From assembly GCA_947302895.1 (NCBI GenBank), contig CAMYWU010000021.1:1-11585 (forward strand): a stretch of DNA of 11,585 bases, read 5' to 3'. The position numbers and the translations under genes were made by a program. Below, piece after piece: positions 628-11,585 of the stretch (its first letter is position 1; each line of letters begins with the position of its first letter). Under the pieces are notes generated by a model. The model made no database searches, was not told the origin of the DNA, and worked only from the letters and a program-made list of their open reading frames with translations. The stretch is from an uncultured Clostridia bacterium. GTDB lineage: Bacteria; Bacillota; Clostridia; Oscillospirales; Acutalibacteraceae.

Positions 628-2502
628 TTATTTCGTTTTGCAGTACAGGGTTTTACTCCAGGGGGAGTAAACCTTTTTATTATTTCTTGTTTTATATGCC
701 CTGACACGAACATAGTATTTCTTCTTTGATTTTGCGGTTGAAAGAGTTGTTTTTGTTCCTGTTACGTTAACCGATTTATAATTCGATGAAAAATTACTTG
801 TTGTGCTCCACATAACCTGATAGCCCGTTGCACCCGAAACCTTTTTGTATTTAACGGTTATTTTCTTTTTGGCGTTTGATTTTGCCGATGAAATAACGGG
901 TGCCTGCGGAGACGTATATGCGGTATAAACACCGCTTTGATTGCTGCTGAAAAGTATGCCCTCTTTAGAATTTTTATGAGCGCTTACCCTGAATTTATAT
1001 GCGGTATTGGGCTTCAGTCCGCTTACAACAACATAGTTATTTGCTCCGCCGCTTATCTTCTTATAAAGACTGTATGAACCTGTCGAGCTGTTATACATAT
1101 AAACATTATAATAGCTTGCGTTCTTTTGCTTTTTCCAGCTCAGCTTTAAGGAATCGGGCTTAACGCTTGAAACGCTGAGCGCTGACGGCGTTGCGGGAGC
1201 GGTTGCACTCTGAAGCGGTGTGCTGTATTCTCCGCTTAAAGTTGACGAGTTAACTGTTTTATATGCTTTAACTCTGATTCTGTAGTTGGAAGCGGCTGAA
1301 AGACCTGTTATTTCAAAGCTTGTTTTATCGGTTTTGCCAGCATCAAGCCAGCCGCTGCTTCTTTCAACCTGAACAAGATAGCCGCTTGCGCCGTTCACGC
1401 TGTCCCAGGAGGCTTTGAGAGAATATATTCCTCTTGTATCAAGCTTAAGACCTGTAACCTTTTCGGGAACAATTGAAAAGTTCTTTTGGATTGGGGTGTA
1501 TTCTTCAAAATCATTTATGCCTGTAATTGTTACGGTTGCAGCGCCGATATTTGTGTTGTTTTTAAACGTAATATAATAATCTTCGCCCTTAACAAGTGTT
1601 TCACCGTTGAATTTTACGTCAATTTCAGGCTTTATTTCGTTTCCTGTATAGGTTTGGTTTGGAATACTTTCTATATCGAATTTCTTGTTGATAATGGAGT
1701 TTAATAAATCAGAATAAATAAAATTCGAATCAACATATCCTTCAATACCGCTCACCTTACCCTTTGAGCTGTATTGCCAGAGCTGGTATTTTCCTGCATA
1801 TGCTGTTTTTGTGTTATAGTGCGCAAGCCAGATTGCATAGAGGTTTTCCAATTCATTTTTGTTAAGATTATCCTCAAAAAAGGATTTGCTTGCATAAATG
1901 CCTGCTTTATAGCCTGCATTTTCAATTGTCTGACAGAAGGCAAGCGCATTCTTTGTCATCTGGTTTTTATTAATGGTTTTATTCTTCCATGCGGAATCAA
2001 GTCTGCCCGAGGGAACGCCTGCAAATTCATAGTCGTAAAAAACAGGAAGAGTGAATCTATAGCCCTTTATGTACTGCAAAACAAATTTTGCTTCCTCTAT
2101 TGCCTCGGCTTCGGTCAGCGCCTGGGAATAGAAATAAACTCCTGTTTCAAAGCCGTTTGCAATTGAAGAGGAAATATTGGTATCAAAGCTTTTATCCTTC
2201 AGAAGCGTTCCCTTTGAACCGTAGCCCCTGCAGCCAACTCTTACTATAATAGTGCTTGTTTTGGTTGATTTAAGGCTTTTGAAATCAATAGTATCGTTAT
2301 GCTGCGAAATATCAATTCCGTTCAGAATAACGCTGTTATCAAAACGGCTGTTTTGAGTGTATGCTGTATTTGTGTATATGCTGGTTGTTTGTGCGGCACT
2401 TGCCGAATAGGGCATAATAATGCAAAGCGCAAGTGCCAGAACAAGCGCTGTAAGCCCGTTAATTCTTTTGTGCTTTTGTGTACCAATAGTTTGTGTCAAC
2501 AT
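628..2502 (-). CDS. Secreted GH25 muramidase (lysozyme) with Ig-like and three FN3 domains
   Basis: The protein has 624 residues from the chosen ATG at 2502. That start has AAGGAG 12 bases upstream (2515-2520) and gives a good signal peptide (KHKR, then a hydrophobic core, cleavage near ASA-A at residue 36). Starting at 2595 would bury the signal peptide. The GH25 domain spans about residues 61-266, with the putative catalytic residues Asp64 (GIDISQHN) and the DxE pair Asp157/Glu159 (VFYDYEF). GH25 enzymes cleave the beta-1,4 bond between MurNAc and GlcNAc. After it come an Ig-like repeat (about 274-346, QTYTG then GEDYYITFKNN) and three FN3 domains (about 347-435, 437-532, 533-623). The last is Lys-rich and may bind the wall. 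The 5' end overlaps the upstream GH25 gene by 44 bases, so the two are probably cotranscribed and translationally coupled. Confidence 0.92.
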   Translation of the reverse strand: MLTQTIGTQKHKRINGLTALVLALALCIIMPYSASAAQTTSIYTNTAYTQNSRFDNSVILNGIDISQHNDTIDFKSLKSTKTSTIIVRVGCRGYGSKGTLLKDKSFDTNISSSIANGFETGVYFYSQALTEAEAIEEAKFVLQYIKGYRFTLPVFYDYEFAGVPSGRLDSAWKNKTINKNQMTKNALAFCQTIENAGYKAGIYASKSFFEDNLNKNELENLYAIWLAHYNTKTAYAGKYQLWQYSSKGKVSGIEGYVDSNFIYSDLLNSIINKKFDIESIPNQTYTGNEIKPEIDVKFNGETLVKGEDYYITFKNNTNIGAATVTITGINDFEEYTPIQKNFSIVPEKVTGLKLDTRGIYSLKASWDSVNGASGYLVQVERSSGWLDAGKTDKTSFEITGLSAASNYRIRVKAYKTVNSSTLSGEYSTPLQSATAPATPSALSVSSVKPDSLKLSWKKQKNASYYNVYMYNSSTGSYSLYKKISGGANNYVVVSGLKPNTAYKFRVSAHKNSKEGILFSSNQSGVYTAYTSPQAPVISSAKSNAKKKITVKYKKVSGATGYQVMWSTTSNFSSNYKSVNVTGTKTTLSTAKSKKKYYVRVRAYKTRNNKKVYSPWSKTLYCKTK

Positions 2503-3253
2503 ATTTTGAAGAAACTCCTTCGCATTTTCCTTTATCTGAAAACTGCCAGAAATCATATTCAACCGAATACGAAACCTCGCCGTTATAATCGGCAACCCAA
2601 ATCATAACGTCCTCATCAAGCTTTTTCGTGTTTAAATGGTTTTTCAGAACATAGCTTGATGCATAAACTCCGGGAGTGTATCCCGCAGCCTGAACCTTAT
2701 TGCAAAAGGCGTTTATCAGGGCTGTTTTTTCTTTCTTTGAAAGATTTGCATCGTCCAGCCTGCCTACATATCTTCCGTTTTTCGTCGGGTATTCAAAATC
2801 AATAACAACGGGAAGGGATATATCGCAGCCCTTGATTTCATCAAGAATAAACTGCGCCTCCTCCTCAGCTTCAGCCTCGGTTATTGCCTGGGAATAGAAG
2901 TAAACGCCAATCGGAACAGAGTTTTTATTTGCGTTTTTAAGGTTGTATTTCGCTTTTGAATCAAGGCAGATTGTTCCGTTATCATATGTACGGTATCCAA
3001 CCCTTATGAATGCAAAGTCAACCTCGCCCTTAACTGTTTTCCAGTTAATTTTTCCGTTATGGTAGGAAACGTCAATTCCATATGCAATATCTTTATTCAG
3101 ATTTATAATATTGCTCTCGCTTTTACTCGGAGAAGCATTGTTTATAATAAGCGCAAAAACGGATAAAACGCAAAGAAAAGCTATGAGAATTACCGCAATT
3201 TTTATGCTTTTTTTGCTCTTCGTTTTCGGCTTCTTTTTTGTTTTAGTAGCCAT
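2459..3253 (-). CDS. Membrane-anchored GH25 muramidase
   Basis: The protein has 264 residues from the ATG at 3253. A very Lys-rich cytoplasmic tail (residues 1-16) precedes one hydrophobic segment (about 17-38) with no clear cleavage site, so it is probably a signal anchor with the enzyme outside. The GH25 domain fills the rest, with putative catalytic Asp61 (GIDVSYHN) and Asp152/Glu154 (VVIDFEYP), and ends in the family's DFWQFSDKG and VDTNYW strands. The domain is a clear paralogue of the downstream GH25 (shared GVYFYSQA-TEAEA stretch), pointing to tandem duplication. A TTG at 3289 would add 12 residues, but neither start has a Shine-Dalgarno sequence; I prefer the ATG because the predicted promoter overlaps the TTG. 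The role is probably cell wall remodelling or growth. Confidence 0.9.
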   Translation of the reverse strand: MATKTKKKPKTKSKKSIKIAVILIAFLCVLSVFALIINNASPSKSESNIINLNKDIAYGIDVSYHNGKINWKTVKGEVDFAFIRVGYRTYDNGTICLDSKAKYNLKNANKNSVPIGVYFYSQAITEAEAEEEAQFILDEIKGCDISLPVVIDFEYPTKNGRYVGRLDDANLSKKEKTALINAFCNKVQAAGYTPGVYASSYVLKNHLNTKKLDEDVMIWVADYNGEVSYSVEYDFWQFSDKGKCEGVSSKYVDTNYWYTKAQKN

Positions 3254-3260
3254 ATCTGGT

Positions 3261-3289
3261 ATTTTAATATATAATTTTGCAAAGTTCAA
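3261..3289 (-). promoter_or_regulatory. Predicted sigma-A promoter for the GH25 pair
   Basis: On the minus strand a -35 TTGAAC (3284-3289) and a -10 TAAAAT (3261-3266) are separated by exactly 17 bases. The expected start falls at or within a base or two of the ATG at 3253, which would give an almost leaderless mRNA. No AGGAG-like sequence precedes this ATG. Confidence 0.5.
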
Positions 3290-3393: not shown

Positions 3394-5769
3394 ATGAAAA
3401 GAGTTTTATGCTTTATAATATCATTGGTATTGATTTTAAGCGTTTGTTTAACTGCAAATGCTGATGAGGGCGTTTTAAATATCAGCGAAAGCAACATATC
3501 CCACGAGGTTTCAGATACGCTTTACGGTGCGTTTATTGAGGATATTTCCTATGCGTGCGATGGCGGACTGGTTTCAAATCTTGTTAATAACGGCTCGTTT
3601 GAATATACGGGCAACCCCGAGGCTTCCTGGAGCTTCAATTCCGTTGAGAGCGTTCTTTCAAATCAGGGGGCTATGAATAAGAATAATTCCTCATTTGAGA
3701 TGCTTAAAATCGACGGCAGGGGATATATAGAAAATATCGGCTTTCCCGAAATATATGATTATAAAACTTATGATTATAATGAAAAAGAAGCCTTCAAGGG
3801 CGATATGGGCTTTAAAGAGGGCGAAAAATATGAGTTTTCAATCTGGCTTAAAAACATTGATTTTGAAGGCTCAATAGGTATTTATCTTAATTCAAAAAGC
3901 AACCAGAACAATGTTGTTACTCTTTCAACAAAGGGTATCAGTAATAATGAGTGGCAGAGGTTTTCAACAGTTTTGAAATCAGAAGCTGATGAGGATGGCT
4001 CGCGTGTTGTTAGCTTCAAAGGCAAGGGCAGCATTGCAATTGATTATATTTCCCTCATACCGCAAAGCAGCTATGGCTATTCAAACGATGAATGGAAGTA
4101 TACAAGTCTCAGAAGCGATTTGGTTGAGGCGCTCAAAAACCTGAAGCCTTCCTTTATTCGTTTTCCTGGGGGATGCCTTGCCGAGGGAACGGATATAAAT
4201 GATTTATATAATTGGAAAAATACCGTTGGTGCGCTTGAAGAAAGGCGCCAGACTCCTAACCTCTGGGGACATCCCGAGGGCGGAAAGAATTATAATAACA
4301 CAAATGCAATGGGCTACCATGAGTATTTTCAGCTCTGCGAGGATTTGGGAGCTCAAGCTGTTCCCGTTGTTAACGCAGGTATGGTATGCCAGGGCAGATG
4401 CGCATTTGACGACCACGCTATTGCACTTAAAAAGGCTCAGATGAGCGATGAGGAGTGGAAGAGCTATCTTATCAATGAGCGTGGATATAACGAAAATGAT
4501 GAGGAGGGAATGAAGGGCTATTCCGACTGGCTCGATTCCTTTGAAATCAAATCTGAAGATGATTATGAAAAATGGCTCGATACCGTTGCCTTAAGACCGG
4601 GAACAGCCGCTTTTACAAACTATCTCAATGATGTTCTTGATTTAATAGAATATGCAAATGCCGAGGCTTCTTCAAGCTATTGGGGCTCTCTCAGAGCTAA
4701 AAACGGCCACGAGGCTCCCTTTAATATCAAATATCTTGCAGTCGGCAACGAAAACTGGGGCGAAACCTATTTCAGAAACTTTGATGAAATATATAAAGCC
4801 GTTAAGGCTAAGTATCCTGATATAACAATTATATCCTCTGTTGGCGCTGCAAGCGAGGGCAGTATGTTTGATTATGCCTGGGATACAATTAATAAAAACT
4901 ATTCCGATACAATTGCTGATGAGCACTACTATACGGGCGATAACTATCTGTTTGAGCATAACGACAGATATGATTCCTATGACCGAGAGGGCGCAGGAGT
5001 TCTTCTCGGAGAATACAGCACAAAGAGCGCAGGCTTCGGAACAATGGAAACAAAAACAAATCTCTGGTCGGCAGTTGAAACTGCAAGCTATTTAACAGGG
5101 CTTGAGCGAAACAGCGATATTGTTAAAATGGTTTCATATGCTCCAACCTTTGCAAAGGTTAATGCAAACGGCTGGGATATTAATATGATTTGGTTTGATT
5201 CCCAATCAACGGCGCTGACTCCCGATTATTATGCGCATATGCTTTTTGCAAATAATATCGGAAACAAATATGTAAAAACAGATTCTATATCCGAAAGTAT
5301 ATATCAGAGCGTAACTCTTGATGAGGATAAACAGGTTTTATATATCAAGCTTGTTAATGCGGGAGGCTCGGAAAAGATAAGCATTAATCTTGATGGCTTT
5401 GATAAAATCAATTATGCTTCAAATCAGTATTTAACCGCTTCCTTCAAATCCGCTTCAAACGAGATTGGCAAACAGCGTGTTGCGCCGAAGGAAGATGAGC
5501 TGAAATTCAGCTCAGGTTCGCTTGAGGTCAGCCTTAAGGAAAACAGCGTTAACGTTATCCGTGTTGCATACGGCAAAAATAACGGCGATTCGCTGTATAA
5601 GATTCCCGACACGGTATCTCTTAAAACAAAGGCATATGTTCCGACAAGAATTATTGCAGCAGTTCTGATAATTGCAACCTGCTTTATTCTCGGCTCGTTC
5701 GTAGGCTTTATCGTATACAATAAATTCTTTATGAAGAAAAATGACAAGGGTGAAAATGATGAAAAATAA
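3394..5769 (+). CDS. Surface-anchored GH51 alpha-L-arabinofuranosidase
   Basis: The protein has 791 residues: a signal peptide (1-23, ANA-DE), then a GH51 fold carrying a CBM-like insertion (about 60-225, starting NNGSFEY and ending in IAIDYISL). The TIM-barrel core shows FIRFPGGC (254-261), the GNENWG motif with putative acid/base Glu453, and LLGEYS with putative nucleophile Glu540. A beta-sandwich follows (about 625-728). The C terminus has a transmembrane helix (about 752-776) and a short charged cytoplasmic tail, so the enzyme is tethered to the outer face of the membrane. Family members release L-arabinofuranose from arabinan, arabinoxylan or arabinogalactan; the substrate here is not determined. 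The layout resembles the plant/bifidobacterial type more than the ~500-residue intracellular type. It is first in its operon, and its 3' end overlaps the next gene by 11 bases. Confidence 0.92.
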   Translation: MKRVLCFIISLVLILSVCLTANADEGVLNISESNISHEVSDTLYGAFIEDISYACDGGLVSNLVNNGSFEYTGNPEASWSFNSVESVLSNQGAMNKNNSSFEMLKIDGRGYIENIGFPEIYDYKTYDYNEKEAFKGDMGFKEGEKYEFSIWLKNIDFEGSIGIYLNSKSNQNNVVTLSTKGISNNEWQRFSTVLKSEADEDGSRVVSFKGKGSIAIDYISLIPQSSYGYSNDEWKYTSLRSDLVEALKNLKPSFIRFPGGCLAEGTDINDLYNWKNTVGALEERRQTPNLWGHPEGGKNYNNTNAMGYHEYFQLCEDLGAQAVPVVNAGMVCQGRCAFDDHAIALKKAQMSDEEWKSYLINERGYNENDEEGMKGYSDWLDSFEIKSEDDYEKWLDTVALRPGTAAFTNYLNDVLDLIEYANAEASSSYWGSLRAKNGHEAPFNIKYLAVGNENWGETYFRNFDEIYKAVKAKYPDITIISSVGAASEGSMFDYAWDTINKNYSDTIADEHYYTGDNYLFEHNDRYDSYDREGAGVLLGEYSTKSAGFGTMETKTNLWSAVETASYLTGLERNSDIVKMVSYAPTFAKVNANGWDINMIWFDSQSTALTPDYYAHMLFANNIGNKYVKTDSISESIYQSVTLDEDKQVLYIKLVNAGGSEKISINLDGFDKINYASNQYLTASFKSASNEIGKQRVAPKEDELKFSSGSLEVSLKENSVNVIRVAYGKNNGDSLYKIPDTVSLKTKAYVPTRIIAAVLIIATCFILGSFVGFIVYNKFFMKKNDKGENDEK

Positions 5770-9447: not shown

Positions 9448-11271
9448 ATGAAAAAGGAAAAGGGAAAAATGAGCGTGTTTTACATAATAATTCTTGCGCT
9501 TGCAGCGCTTATCGGCTTTGCCGTGCTTGAGCTTGGCAAAAACACTCTTTTGGGGTGGGGGATTCTGCTTGCGGCGCTTATCGGCTTTATTGTTCTGGAA
9601 GCCTTTGTAACAAAGAAAAACGGCTTTTTTATTCATCTTCTGCTTGTTGTTGCATTTATCGGCGTTATTGCAGGAGCGTATTTTGCTTCAATTCCGCCTT
9701 ATAAATGCACGCCTGCAGTTGATAACAGGAATCCCGAGGTTACGGGTGTTGTTTCGGTTAATGAAGGCTATTTAACGGGCGTTTTTAATAAGGATAAAAG
9801 CGTTGAGGTTTATGCAGGCATACCCTATGCTGCGCCTCCCGTCGGCGAGCTCAGATGGAAGGAGCCCCAGCCCGCAGAAAAGTGGGAGGGAGTTAAGGCT
9901 TGCGATACCTTTGCGCCGATGAGTATGCAAAAGCGTGATGGCGAAATAATGAATTCGCTGACCAAGCTCTTTGGCTATCATTATTTCAATATCAGCCTTA
10001 AGGATAACTACCGTGAGGCAGTAAGCGAGGATTCGCTCTATCTCAATATATGGAAGCCCGCAGGCGAGGTTAAGGAGGCGCCCGTTCTGTTCTTTATTCA
10101 CGGCGGTTCGCTCACAGGCGGTCAGTCCTCCTTCAGCGAATACAGGGGCGAGGATTTGGCAAAGAAGGGAATTATCGTTGTTAATTTTGCTTACAGACTC
10201 AATGTTTTCGGTTATATGGCAAATAAAGAGCTTGCCGCTGAAAGCGAAAACAAAACAACGGGTAACTACGGACTTCTTGACCAGATTGCTGCGCTTAAAT
10301 GGGTTAATGAAAACATCGCCTCCTTTGGCGGCGACGCTTCAAAAATAACTATTGCAGGTGAGTCGGCAGGAGCTTCAAGCGTTGGAGCGCTCTGTGTTTC
10401 TCCGCTTGCAAAGGGGCTTTTCAGATATGCGATTGCCGAGAGCAGCGGCATAACTCCGAAAACTCCGTACCACACTTTCAGAAGCTTTTCCGATGCGCTT
10501 TCCGAGGGCGATAAAACAATGAATGATTTCGGCGCAAAGAGTATTGATGATTTGCGCAAGCTCTCCGCAAAGGAGCTTCTTAAAACAACGGCAAACAACA
10601 GCGCAATGACTGTTGACGGCTATGCCATAGCTGAGCAGCCATATCTCACCTATGAAAAGGGCGAAAATAACGAACAGGCTTTAATGAACGGCTATAACGC
10701 CCACGAGGCTGATGTTTTCAACCTCTTTACCGAGGTTAACGAGCCTGAGTATAAAGAGGCGCTGAACACCCTTTTTGGCAAATATGCCGATGAAGCGCTT
10801 GAAGCATACCCCGCAGACAGCAACCCCCTTGAGTACAAAATTGCAATTGAAAAGGGCGGAAGCGCAAAGGGCGCATATAATCACGTTTTGAGCGGAACAT
10901 GGTTTGCATACAGCCATAAAAAGTGGAGCGATTATATGGCGGCGCAGGGTAAGAACGTTTATTTCTATTATTTCAGCAAGAATAACGGCGCCCTGCGAGC
11001 TTACCACGCAGGCGAGCTGCCATATGCATATGGCAACCTCTGGCGACATAAAAGGAATTATACCGAGGAGGATTATAAGCTCTCAGAGCAAATGCAGAGA
11101 TATTGGGTGAACTTCGTTAAAACGGGCAATCCCAACGGCGATAACCTTCCATCCTGGGAAAAATACACCGCCGACCAAACCAAACTCCTGCAATTTGATA
11201 CAGAAGTTAAAATGATGGACGACCCGTACAGCAAACTCTATCCGATAATTGATAAAGATCAAGATGAGTGA
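9448..11271 (+). CDS. Membrane-tethered type B carboxylesterase
   Basis: The protein has 607 residues from the ATG at 9448, with AAGGAG 7 bases upstream; a TTG at 9385 lies before the promoter -10 and is unlikely. Three hydrophobic segments (about 9-29, 33-53 and 60-80) follow a Lys-rich start, which would place the enzyme domain outside. The domain is an alpha/beta hydrolase of the type B carboxylesterase family: GIPYAAPPVGELRW, the oxyanion HGG (218-220), nucleophile Ser306 in GESAGASS, acid Glu420 in NAHEADVF and His520 in AYHAGELPYAYGN. This family cleaves esters of short acids or alcohols; the natural ester is unknown. A cell-surface site could fit deacylation of plant polymers, given the nearby arabinofuranosidase, but this is inference. 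It appears to be a single-gene unit, ended by the 11303-11324 terminator. Confidence 0.93.
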   Translation: MKKEKGKMSVFYIIILALAALIGFAVLELGKNTLLGWGILLAALIGFIVLEAFVTKKNGFFIHLLLVVAFIGVIAGAYFASIPPYKCTPAVDNRNPEVTGVVSVNEGYLTGVFNKDKSVEVYAGIPYAAPPVGELRWKEPQPAEKWEGVKACDTFAPMSMQKRDGEIMNSLTKLFGYHYFNISLKDNYREAVSEDSLYLNIWKPAGEVKEAPVLFFIHGGSLTGGQSSFSEYRGEDLAKKGIIVVNFAYRLNVFGYMANKELAAESENKTTGNYGLLDQIAALKWVNENIASFGGDASKITIAGESAGASSVGALCVSPLAKGLFRYAIAESSGITPKTPYHTFRSFSDALSEGDKTMNDFGAKSIDDLRKLSAKELLKTTANNSAMTVDGYAIAEQPYLTYEKGENNEQALMNGYNAHEADVFNLFTEVNEPEYKEALNTLFGKYADEALEAYPADSNPLEYKIAIEKGGSAKGAYNHVLSGTWFAYSHKKWSDYMAAQGKNVYFYYFSKNNGALRAYHAGELPYAYGNLWRHKRNYTEEDYKLSEQMQRYWVNFVKTGNPNGDNLPSWEKYTADQTKLLQFDTEVKMMDDPYSKLYPIIDKDQDE

Positions 11272-11277
11272 TTAGCG

Positions 11278-11298
11278 GCAAGTTGCAAGTGACAAGTA
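11278..11298 (+). repeat. Three imperfect heptamer repeats
   Basis: GCAAGTT, GCAAGTG and ACAAGTA lie head to tail just after the esterase stop and before its terminator. The number of copies may vary between strains. No function is seen. Confidence 0.5.
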
Positions 11299-11336
11299 AC
11301 CTCCCGAACAGATTTCTGTTCGGGGGTTTATTTTTG
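11299..11336 (+). terminator. Strong intrinsic terminator after the carboxylesterase
   Basis: CCCGAACAGA (11303-11312) pairs with TCTGTTCGGG (11315-11324), extendable outward by several pairs, with the closing A-T opened to give a 4-nt loop. It is followed by a GGTTTATTTTT tail, starting about 30 bases after the stop codon. Confidence 0.9.
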
Positions 11337-11341
11337 CTGTT

Positions 11342-11379
11342 CACAATTGTTAGCTATCTCAAAGAGAACACTAATTGTG
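11342..11379. repeat. Short inverted repeat upstream of the predicted RNA promoter
   Basis: CACAATT (11342-11348) and AATTGTG (11373-11379) form a 7-bp dyad; an alternative pairing also uses TTAG/CTAA. It lies just upstream of the -35 at 11395 and could be an operator, but it may also be chance in AT-rich DNA. Confidence 0.3.
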
Positions 11380-11394
11380 CTAATAATAAATTGG

Positions 11395-11423
11395 TTGATA
11401 TTTGTTTATCTATGTGATAAAAT
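11395..11423 (+). promoter_or_regulatory. Predicted sigma-A promoter for a structured RNA
   Basis: -35 TTGATA (11395-11400), a 17-base spacer and -10 TAAAAT (11418-11423) preceded by an extended TG (11415-11416). The start would fall near 11430, at the first base of the long hairpin. Confidence 0.65.
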
Positions 11424-11429
11424 AAGAAG

Positions 11430-11585
11430 TGCCAAATAATATTCCAAAATTAAATACCCAAACTATAAGTGTGTGTTTTTATTCCTTGATAAAAATGCAT
11501 GCTCATTTCAGCACACTTATTGGGTGTTTTGGAATATTGTTTGGCGACAGTTAGAGCTATGCGTTTTTTGTGCGTAGCTTCGGCT
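11430..11585 (+). ncRNA. Candidate structured RNA or structured leader, 3' end outside the window
   Basis: No ORF with a credible start and ribosome binding site is visible in 11338-11585. Instead there is a long interrupted hairpin: a 19-bp stem (11431-11449 with 11527-11545, one G-T pair), then ACCCAA/TTGGGT (11456-11461 with 11520-11525), then TAAGTGTG/CACACTTA (11466-11473 with 11512-11519). Small asymmetric bulges separate the segments. The apical part holds TTTTTA/TAAAAA (11476-11481 with 11490-11495). A second hairpin, 11555-11563 with 11571-11579, has two G-T pairs and a U-rich loop. The predicted start at the stem foot supports an RNA. It may be a 6S-like or other regulatory RNA, a leader of a downstream gene, or a small palindromic mobile element. 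I match it to no known family. Confidence 0.5.

Follow-up and report, generated by a model that had tools for sequence, protein, structure and literature searches.

Introduction

What is the long interrupted hairpin with which a contig of an uncultured Clostridia bacterium ends, and what could it do there? The window, i.e., the whole stretch of 11,585 nt that was analysed (GenBank assembly GCA_947302895.1, contig CAMYWU010000021.1), carries it at its 3' end, and a sequence-only reading had taken it for a possible transcribed RNA structure rather than for a transposon palindrome. From the comparison of its copies, we describe here a structured RNA of ~167 nt, extending from an extended -10 promoter through an intrinsic terminator, which we take for a leader RNA of a new class in Clostridia, most likely an attenuator that serves accessory genes. 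We estimate at roughly 0.7 the probability that this element would act as a cis-acting leader RNA controlling the next gene by transcription attenuation. If right, the Clostridia of rumen and gut would have a large RNA regulon, apparently absent from the catalogues, and there would be a direct handle, one RNA with predicted switch strands, on what the downstream genes respond to.

The hairpin and its promoter

The stretch 11395-11585 has a folding energy of -65.9 kcal/mol, compared with -36.6 +/- 4.3 kcal/mol for 200 dinucleotide shuffles (z -6.8), none of which is as stable. Its hairpin (11431-11545, 115 nt) consists of several stacked segments with bulges on the 5' side, and the arms 11431-11449 and 11527-11545 are 95% complementary, bearing out the interrupted hairpin of the sequence-only reading. 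The good extended -10 promoter claimed ahead of the first paired base is likewise there: TTGATA, a spacer of 17 nt, and TAAAAT (11418-11423) with a TG extension, followed by 7 nt before the hairpin starts. Across copies, the spacer has 17 nt in 157/180 cases and the promoter scores at least 9 of 12 in 152/180, compared with 19/180 when shuffled.

The coordinates of the hairpin stood, whereas the boundary given to the unit did not, since the element is longer and runs from promoter to terminator. Past 11545, the RNA of the window goes on with R, then a run of U, and then the 5' half of a terminator stem, inside which the contig stops at 11585. This terminator can be recognised as intrinsic because a second copy in the same genome, located on the minus strand of L008 at 1067-1244 and with 78% identity over query bases 45-161, shows it whole; that copy ends 24 nt 5' of the start codon of a BspA-type leucine-rich repeat gene. 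The parts of the window copy are collected in Table 1.

Table 1. Features of the window copy of the element, with the evidence for each.
Feature	Position	Strand	Evidence
-35 hexamer TTGATA	11395..11400	+	window sequence; across-copy promoter scores
Extended -10, TGA-TAAAAT	11415..11423	+	TG extension in 164/180 copies
P1 5' strand, first paired base the likely +1	11431..11448	+	complementarity, fold, helix 1 covariation
5'-side bulge between P1 and P2, AATA-like in many copies	11449..11453	+	fold
P2 5' strand	11454..11460	+	fold of the window copy alone, without a separate count on the alignment
P3 5' strand X (partner X', alternative partner L)	11465..11474	+	helix 2 covariation; X:L count
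P4 5' strand, U-rich	11476..11483	+	fold; other copies similar
P4 3' strand, GATAAAAA	11488..11495	+	fold; A run invariant or nearly so
L, AATGCATGCTC, strand 1 of the predicted switch chain	11494..11504	+	pseudoknot pairing with R
P3 3' strand X'	11511..11520	+	helix 2 covariation
P2 3' strand	11521..11527	+	fold
P1 3' strand	11528..11545	+	complementarity, fold, covariation
R, GAGCTATGCG, predicted strand 2 (partner L in the pseudoknot or T5 in the antiterminator)	11554..11563	+	pairing tests
First U run	11564..11569	+	four Ts in a row in 83/83 alignment rows
T5 and loop of the intrinsic terminator, T3 beyond the contig end	11570..11585	+	completeness in the second copy

An RNA family of Clostridia

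The 161 bases of the window copy alone match 58 of the 80 genomes of the genus in a DNA search, and the idea of a single local curiosity was rejected on this ground. Thirty copies printed with their flanks follow a common plan with few exceptions (such as L031, which has another foot). It starts with a sigma-70 promoter with an extended -10, GCCAAA at the start, and a long hairpin whose arms are free in sequence but paired; it continues with a U/A-rich inner stem, L (AATGCATGCTC or a variant of it), TTTGGCGACAGTT, R (GAGCTATGCG, again with variants), a U run, and the terminator, after which most of the thirty show a ribosome binding site (RBS) and a start codon. The sequence AATA lies within element bases 10-32 in 150/192 copies.

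A covariance model built from 28 sequences, that of the window included, finds the element in at least 65/80 genomes of the genus, at least 104/300 of the family draw, at least 101/295 of the order draw, and at least 92/391 of the class draw, the last covering at least 54 of the 223 sampled genera. In the phylum draw, which doubles as a false-positive control, the count is at least 1/249, the window's own genome being the only carrier among the candidates scored. As few candidates were scored per genome (35, 9, 9, 7, and 11 in the genus, family, order, class, and phylum draws, respectively), absences and copy numbers in these large searches are lower bounds; the samples drawn at the different ranks share some genomes. 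A DNA pattern retrieved at least 118 stretches, largely from rumen and gut metagenome-assembled genomes labelled Oscillospiraceae, Eubacterium, Ruminococcus, or Clostridia, and the records confirmed by the model include Clostridium sp. CAG:217 (L091) and Candidatus Eubacterium faecigallinarum (L064), a member of the class Clostridia in the NCBI taxonomy. The pattern also strikes unrelated taxa (e.g., L040 and L066), where the covariance model finds no element, and its one listed match on a viral contig (L156) has no covariance-model match at E<=1e-7.

This structured RNA family is apparently not catalogued. A scan of the window against Rfam 15, as the sequence-only reading had suggested, gives no family at gathering score, in support of its view of a structured RNA outside the named families. 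At E<=1, nine loci (L007-L010, L013, L019, L025, L028, and L035) yield one match over any element, a tmRNA hit in L035 with 14.7 bits for a cut-off of 47. A literature search found nothing recognisable as this RNA within a coverage that leaves aside supplements and a 2017 survey, which reportedly holds 224 candidate RNAs, so that its absence from print is unproven. The same holds for the portions consulted of PMC8040213, PMC8632094, PMC6429828, and PMC2965389, where nothing recognisable as this RNA appears.

The contigs C3, C9, C19, and C28 of genome G034, as well as the window's contig (C21), end in or within ~55 nt of an element, as would be expected if its near-identical 3' block breaks assemblies.

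Covariation of the helices

Covariation was counted on an alignment of 83 distinct sequences (A3) against shuffles and slid registers. Over the whole structure, 97.6% of 3443 cells are paired and 30 of the 42 pairs show double changes; the covariation score reaches 0.495, compared with 0.219 +/- 0.006 in shuffles and at most 0.076 in slid registers, and double-change cells amount to 474, compared with 123.4 +/- 8.4 and 46-83, respectively. The covariation that the sequence-only reading proposed to look for is thus very strong. Helix 1 (P1) is 98.1% paired, with both sides changed in 10/13 pairs, helix 2 (P3) 96.0% (9/9 pairs), the terminator helix 99.7% (7/9 pairs), and the L:R helix 96.5% (4/11 pairs). 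Even the foot of the hairpin switches pair type, its third pair being CG in 57 sequences, GC in 23, and UA in 2, and its fifth pair AU in 52 and CG in 28. The element combines an extreme variability of its arms with a strict structure.

Since A3 was fitted to the nested helices of the model, the counts for P1, P3, and the terminator lean towards those helices; the L:R and R:T5 columns are unpaired in the covariance model. Shuffle and swap statistics ignore kinship, but slid registers and negative pairings show no such effect.

The predicted switch strands

The strands L, R, T5, and T3 could be parsed in 187/192 elements, the window's being among the five left out, and their pairings were examined by a swap test, in which partners are exchanged among copies on unique strand pairs with 10,000 permutations. 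T5:T3 gives z -20.3 (132 unique pairs), L:R z -11.5 (126 unique pairs), and R:T5 z -5.0 (161 unique pairs), each with 0/10,000 permutations as extreme, as also in an earlier L:R run on 133 pairs. The control pairings fail: L:T5 gives z +0.8 (148 pairs) and L:T3 z +0.5 (133 pairs). The mean energies over the 187 elements are -13.9 kcal/mol for the terminator, -9.4 for R:T5, and -10.7 for L:R, with a terminator hairpin at or below -8 kcal/mol in 186/187 and an R:T5 hairpin at or below -4 kcal/mol in 184/187.

On alignment columns, L:R has 35 double-change cells, compared with 11.1 +/- 2.4 in shuffles, and three of its five measures exceed all shuffles; the other two lie within them, namely double-change pairs (4 vs 2.9; 61/500) and pair types (14 vs 12.9; 94/500). 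The column signal of R:T5 is weak (93.3% paired vs 92.4% shuffled; 9 double changes vs 6.7), and so is that of the alternative X:L pairing (88.6% vs 86.4%; 5 double-change cells vs 1.3). The swap tests support a set of competing predicted helices: an L:R pseudoknot, an R:T5 antiterminator, and the T5:T3 terminator. The predicted hairpin helices, the terminator, and the L:R helix are shown by comparison, the putative R:T5 helix is moderately supported, and the same grade would apply to an X:L pairing that could hold L, with its weak column count.

Proposed mechanism of attenuation

According to our model, transcription would begin at the foot of the hairpin. L, in the internal loop of the hairpin, would pair across with R, just downstream, to form the pseudoknot, whereas R has T5, the terminator's 5' half, as another possible partner, with which it would form an antiterminator; T5, in turn, can pair with T3. 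Since R is shared by L and T5, and T5 by R and T3, formation of L:R would leave T5 free, the terminator would form, and the gene would be off; the L:R state as the 'off' state is inferred from this chain. When L is unavailable, for instance held by X, R would take T5, and the resulting antiterminator would allow read-through into the gene, turning it on. A trans-acting factor or a ligand would presumably act on the hairpin. The predicted chain would work like a four-strand attenuator whose strand 1 is held in a hairpin.

A translated leader peptide in the element is unlikely. RBS-led open reading frames (ORFs) of at least 6 codons starting in the first 90 nt are depleted, with 13/192 elements compared with 75.6 +/- 6.5 in mononucleotide shuffles, and attenuation through a leader peptide was rejected accordingly.

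Genes downstream of the element

The initial set of 197 elements contained five reverse-strand artefacts, whose removal leaves 192, nine of them same-locus duplicates. An RBS with the start codon of an ORF of at least 50 aa lies on the same strand within 80 nt past the terminator in 127/184 real elements, or 118/175 once the nine duplicates are removed, compared with 12/171 in a control that takes divergent ORFs on the upstream side. In 90 of the 118 non-duplicate cases, the start is within 26 nt of the terminator. An intrinsic terminator thus lies between the promoter and a same-strand start codon, the window copy itself being cut by the contig end, and the position before a predicted RBS and start codon is shown by comparison for about two thirds of the copies. 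RBS-like motifs occur in the first 40 nt in 143/197 elements, compared with 38/197 at +300, both counts including the five artefacts. A cruder test with ORFs of at least 120 aa on 164 elements finds the nearest downstream ORF within 500 nt on the same strand in 82 cases, on the opposite strand in 26, and none in 56; on the upstream side the figures are 104, 38, and 22, respectively. An ORF of this size, in many cases probably spurious, overlaps 62 of the 164 elements.

For the remaining 57/184 real elements, no gene of this kind starts in the 80 nt. The list of geneless cases (62 entries, including the five artefacts) comprises 11 tandem units, while others stand before broken or short ORFs and some before nothing evident. 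These bring up a different reading, in which each unit would be a complete gene for a multicopy trans-acting small RNA (promoter, RNA of ~167 nt, terminator) and the neighbouring gene would receive read-through only. Most copies do have both promoter and terminator, as do the tandem units with no gene between them, just as small RNA genes would, and the copies with nothing evident downstream also fit. However, a start codon with its RBS so close behind the terminator in 90/118 cases, the persistence of the element before rare gene families, including the 91-aa gene described below, and an R:T5 chain that would be left without purpose make this reading unlikely.

This persistence is illustrated by two gene families, both lacking a Pfam match, that occur in 5 and 4 of the 80 genomes, respectively. 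In the first, the element precedes 5/5 matches (4/4 without the query, which was chosen for having the element); in the second, it precedes 3/3 full-length matches (2/2 without the query, chosen likewise), and the fourth match, a partial one inside a longer ORF, has no element.

The Pfam, PADLOC, and PHROGs scans covered 98 of the 127 downstream proteins; those dropped by hand were same-locus duplicates plus about a dozen very long proteins, mostly of the surface type. Pfam assigns 58 families to the scanned set, led by LRR_5 (15), zinc ribbon (6), HTH_3 (4), and AMP-binding (3), with no common pathway among the 98, which would be unusual for a ligand riboswitch. Signal-like N-termini, according to a simple home-made hydropathy rule, are found in 57/117 downstream proteins and in 50/281 other ORFs of the same loci, a background that perhaps includes spurious ORFs. 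The element often stands before surface proteins and genes without known family. PADLOC spreads over 19 families, none in more than 4 of the 98 proteins, leaving a defence role weak, and PHROGs gives no clear phage link for the downstream proteins.

Dispersal of the element

Genome G066 holds 34 elements, several of them in tandem, and the count is again 34 when 150 candidates are scored. It includes 13 dispersed copies of a 91-aa gene (L259-L263, L265, L266, L268, L271, L272, L275, L282, and L284), 13/13 behind their own element and one cut by a contig end; this gene has no Pfam match and forms five protein clusters in a protein search. Among these 13 units, mean identity is 77% for the gene (27.5 to 94.6%, cut copy included), 90% for the 3'-terminal 56 nt of the element, and 71% for the arms (60% for shuffled arms and 70% for random element pairs from all sources), and the flanks beyond promoter and stop codon, at 58-59%, look unrelated. 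Either the arms diverge with the structure kept, or gene and tail are homogenised by conversion. The unit of L272 lies between what read, by eye, as inverted copies of a terminator of ~45 nt, which might allow inversion.

Considering all sources, arms are at least 86% identical in 49 element pairs, and 31 listed pairs of this kind have flanks that the chosen cut classes as unrelated at both ends; discarding same-locus duplicates and pairs whose genes are related leaves, by our reading, ~20. In the unrelated-flank pairs, identity in the promoter spacer comes close to that of random pairs and, past the terminator, does not differ from it, so that the shared block would roughly correspond to the transcribed hairpin. 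Recombination in conserved blocks most simply accounts for the shared hairpins, and movement of the element through RNA is conceivable. Two pairs (L223/L225 and L103/L126) have upstream sequence and element in common and different downstream sequence.

The sequence-only reading had set an RNA against a dispersed element. The RNA stands, supported by the covariation; the opposition was too sharp, as the copies are dispersed and often in tandem, with some near-identical hairpins in unrelated contexts. A non-autonomous mobile repeat (MITE-like or REP-like), or a mobile attenuator, landing before genes with its promoter and terminator would explain the dispersed copies (34 in G066 alone), the 31 pairs, or roughly 20 after clean-up, with near-identical arms in unrelated flanks, and the promoter-to-stop units of G066. 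We find this quite improbable as the whole explanation, since the compensatory changes of divergent copies are strong in each of the four helices counted, a pattern not expected of decaying repeats, and since the element keeps a typical orientation and distance to the start codon. The window copy has no blastn match in 50,697 phage or 72,556 plasmid records, a search that diverged copies could escape; a phage or plasmid origin is therefore unsupported. Mobility can nevertheless coexist with a leader function.

Returning to the leader RNA, it could even serve as a switch shared across the class, in which one RNA architecture would put unrelated, often orphan or surface genes under one signal via a pseudoknot-gated four-strand attenuator, and the module would be copied between genes with boundaries near the transcript start and the terminator, new genes being pluggable into the regulon. 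We consider this extension conceivable yet doubtful.

Comparison with known regulatory RNAs

In trp-type four-strand attenuators, strands pair as 1:2, 2:3, and 3:4, where 3:4 is the terminator and 2:3 the antiterminator. The element would share this chain, but with a strand 1 that sits within the 115-nt hairpin and forms a pseudoknot; in addition, leader ORFs with an RBS are depleted, and its genes do not belong to one pathway. Riboswitches with terminator expression platforms have a structured 5' domain, mutually exclusive terminator and antiterminator, and an RBS after the terminator, all of which are predicted here as well; contrary to them, the element is present in many copies per genome, before heterogeneous genes, with arms of almost free sequence and with its own conserved promoter.

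Mobile attenuators, according to the portion consulted of Naville and Gautheret 2010 (PMC2965389), are IS-derived terminators with high conservation and recent dissemination. They resemble the element in that similar attenuators stand upstream of unrelated genes, whereas the element is elaborate and shows compensatory change across many genera of a class. The SLH motif, a riboswitch candidate described, in the part consulted of PMC6429828, from 80 examples, about 60% of them before SLH-domain genes, also lies upstream of surface-protein genes and partly in Clostridia; SLH occurs in 1/98 scanned proteins here, and the two are set apart by description, not by sequence.

Finally, that the element is the RNA antitoxin of a type III-like toxin-antitoxin locus is very improbable, even though it shares with these loci, as the consulted part of PMC5086642 describes them, the order of promoter, pseudoknotted RNA, intrinsic terminator, and gene, and some of the genes that follow are small and lack a Pfam match, because the transcripts read have by eye a single hairpin each and no short tandem repeats, and the 58 Pfam families over 98 downstream proteins, with leucine-rich surface proteins, AMP-binding enzymes, and zinc ribbons, are not one toxin fold or family.

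Surroundings of the window copy

A strong intrinsic terminator lies at 11294-11333, directly 5' of the promoter region of the element, and a carboxylesterase gene (COesterase, Pfam E 1e-104) ends before it, at 11271. Between this terminator and the element's promoter there is, by eye, a small inverted repeat (11341-11381, CACAATT ... AATTGTG), part of which would be able to pair with X' through the 13-nt arms 11369-11381 and 11510-11522. Further upstream, an alpha-L-arabinofuranosidase-like gene (3394-5769) carries ASD1_dom and Alpha-L-AF_C domains and, by eye, a C-terminal membrane segment. On the minus strand, two overlapping open frames at 628-3289 encode glycosyl hydrolase family 25 (lysozyme-like) domains, one of them together with fibronectin type III repeats.
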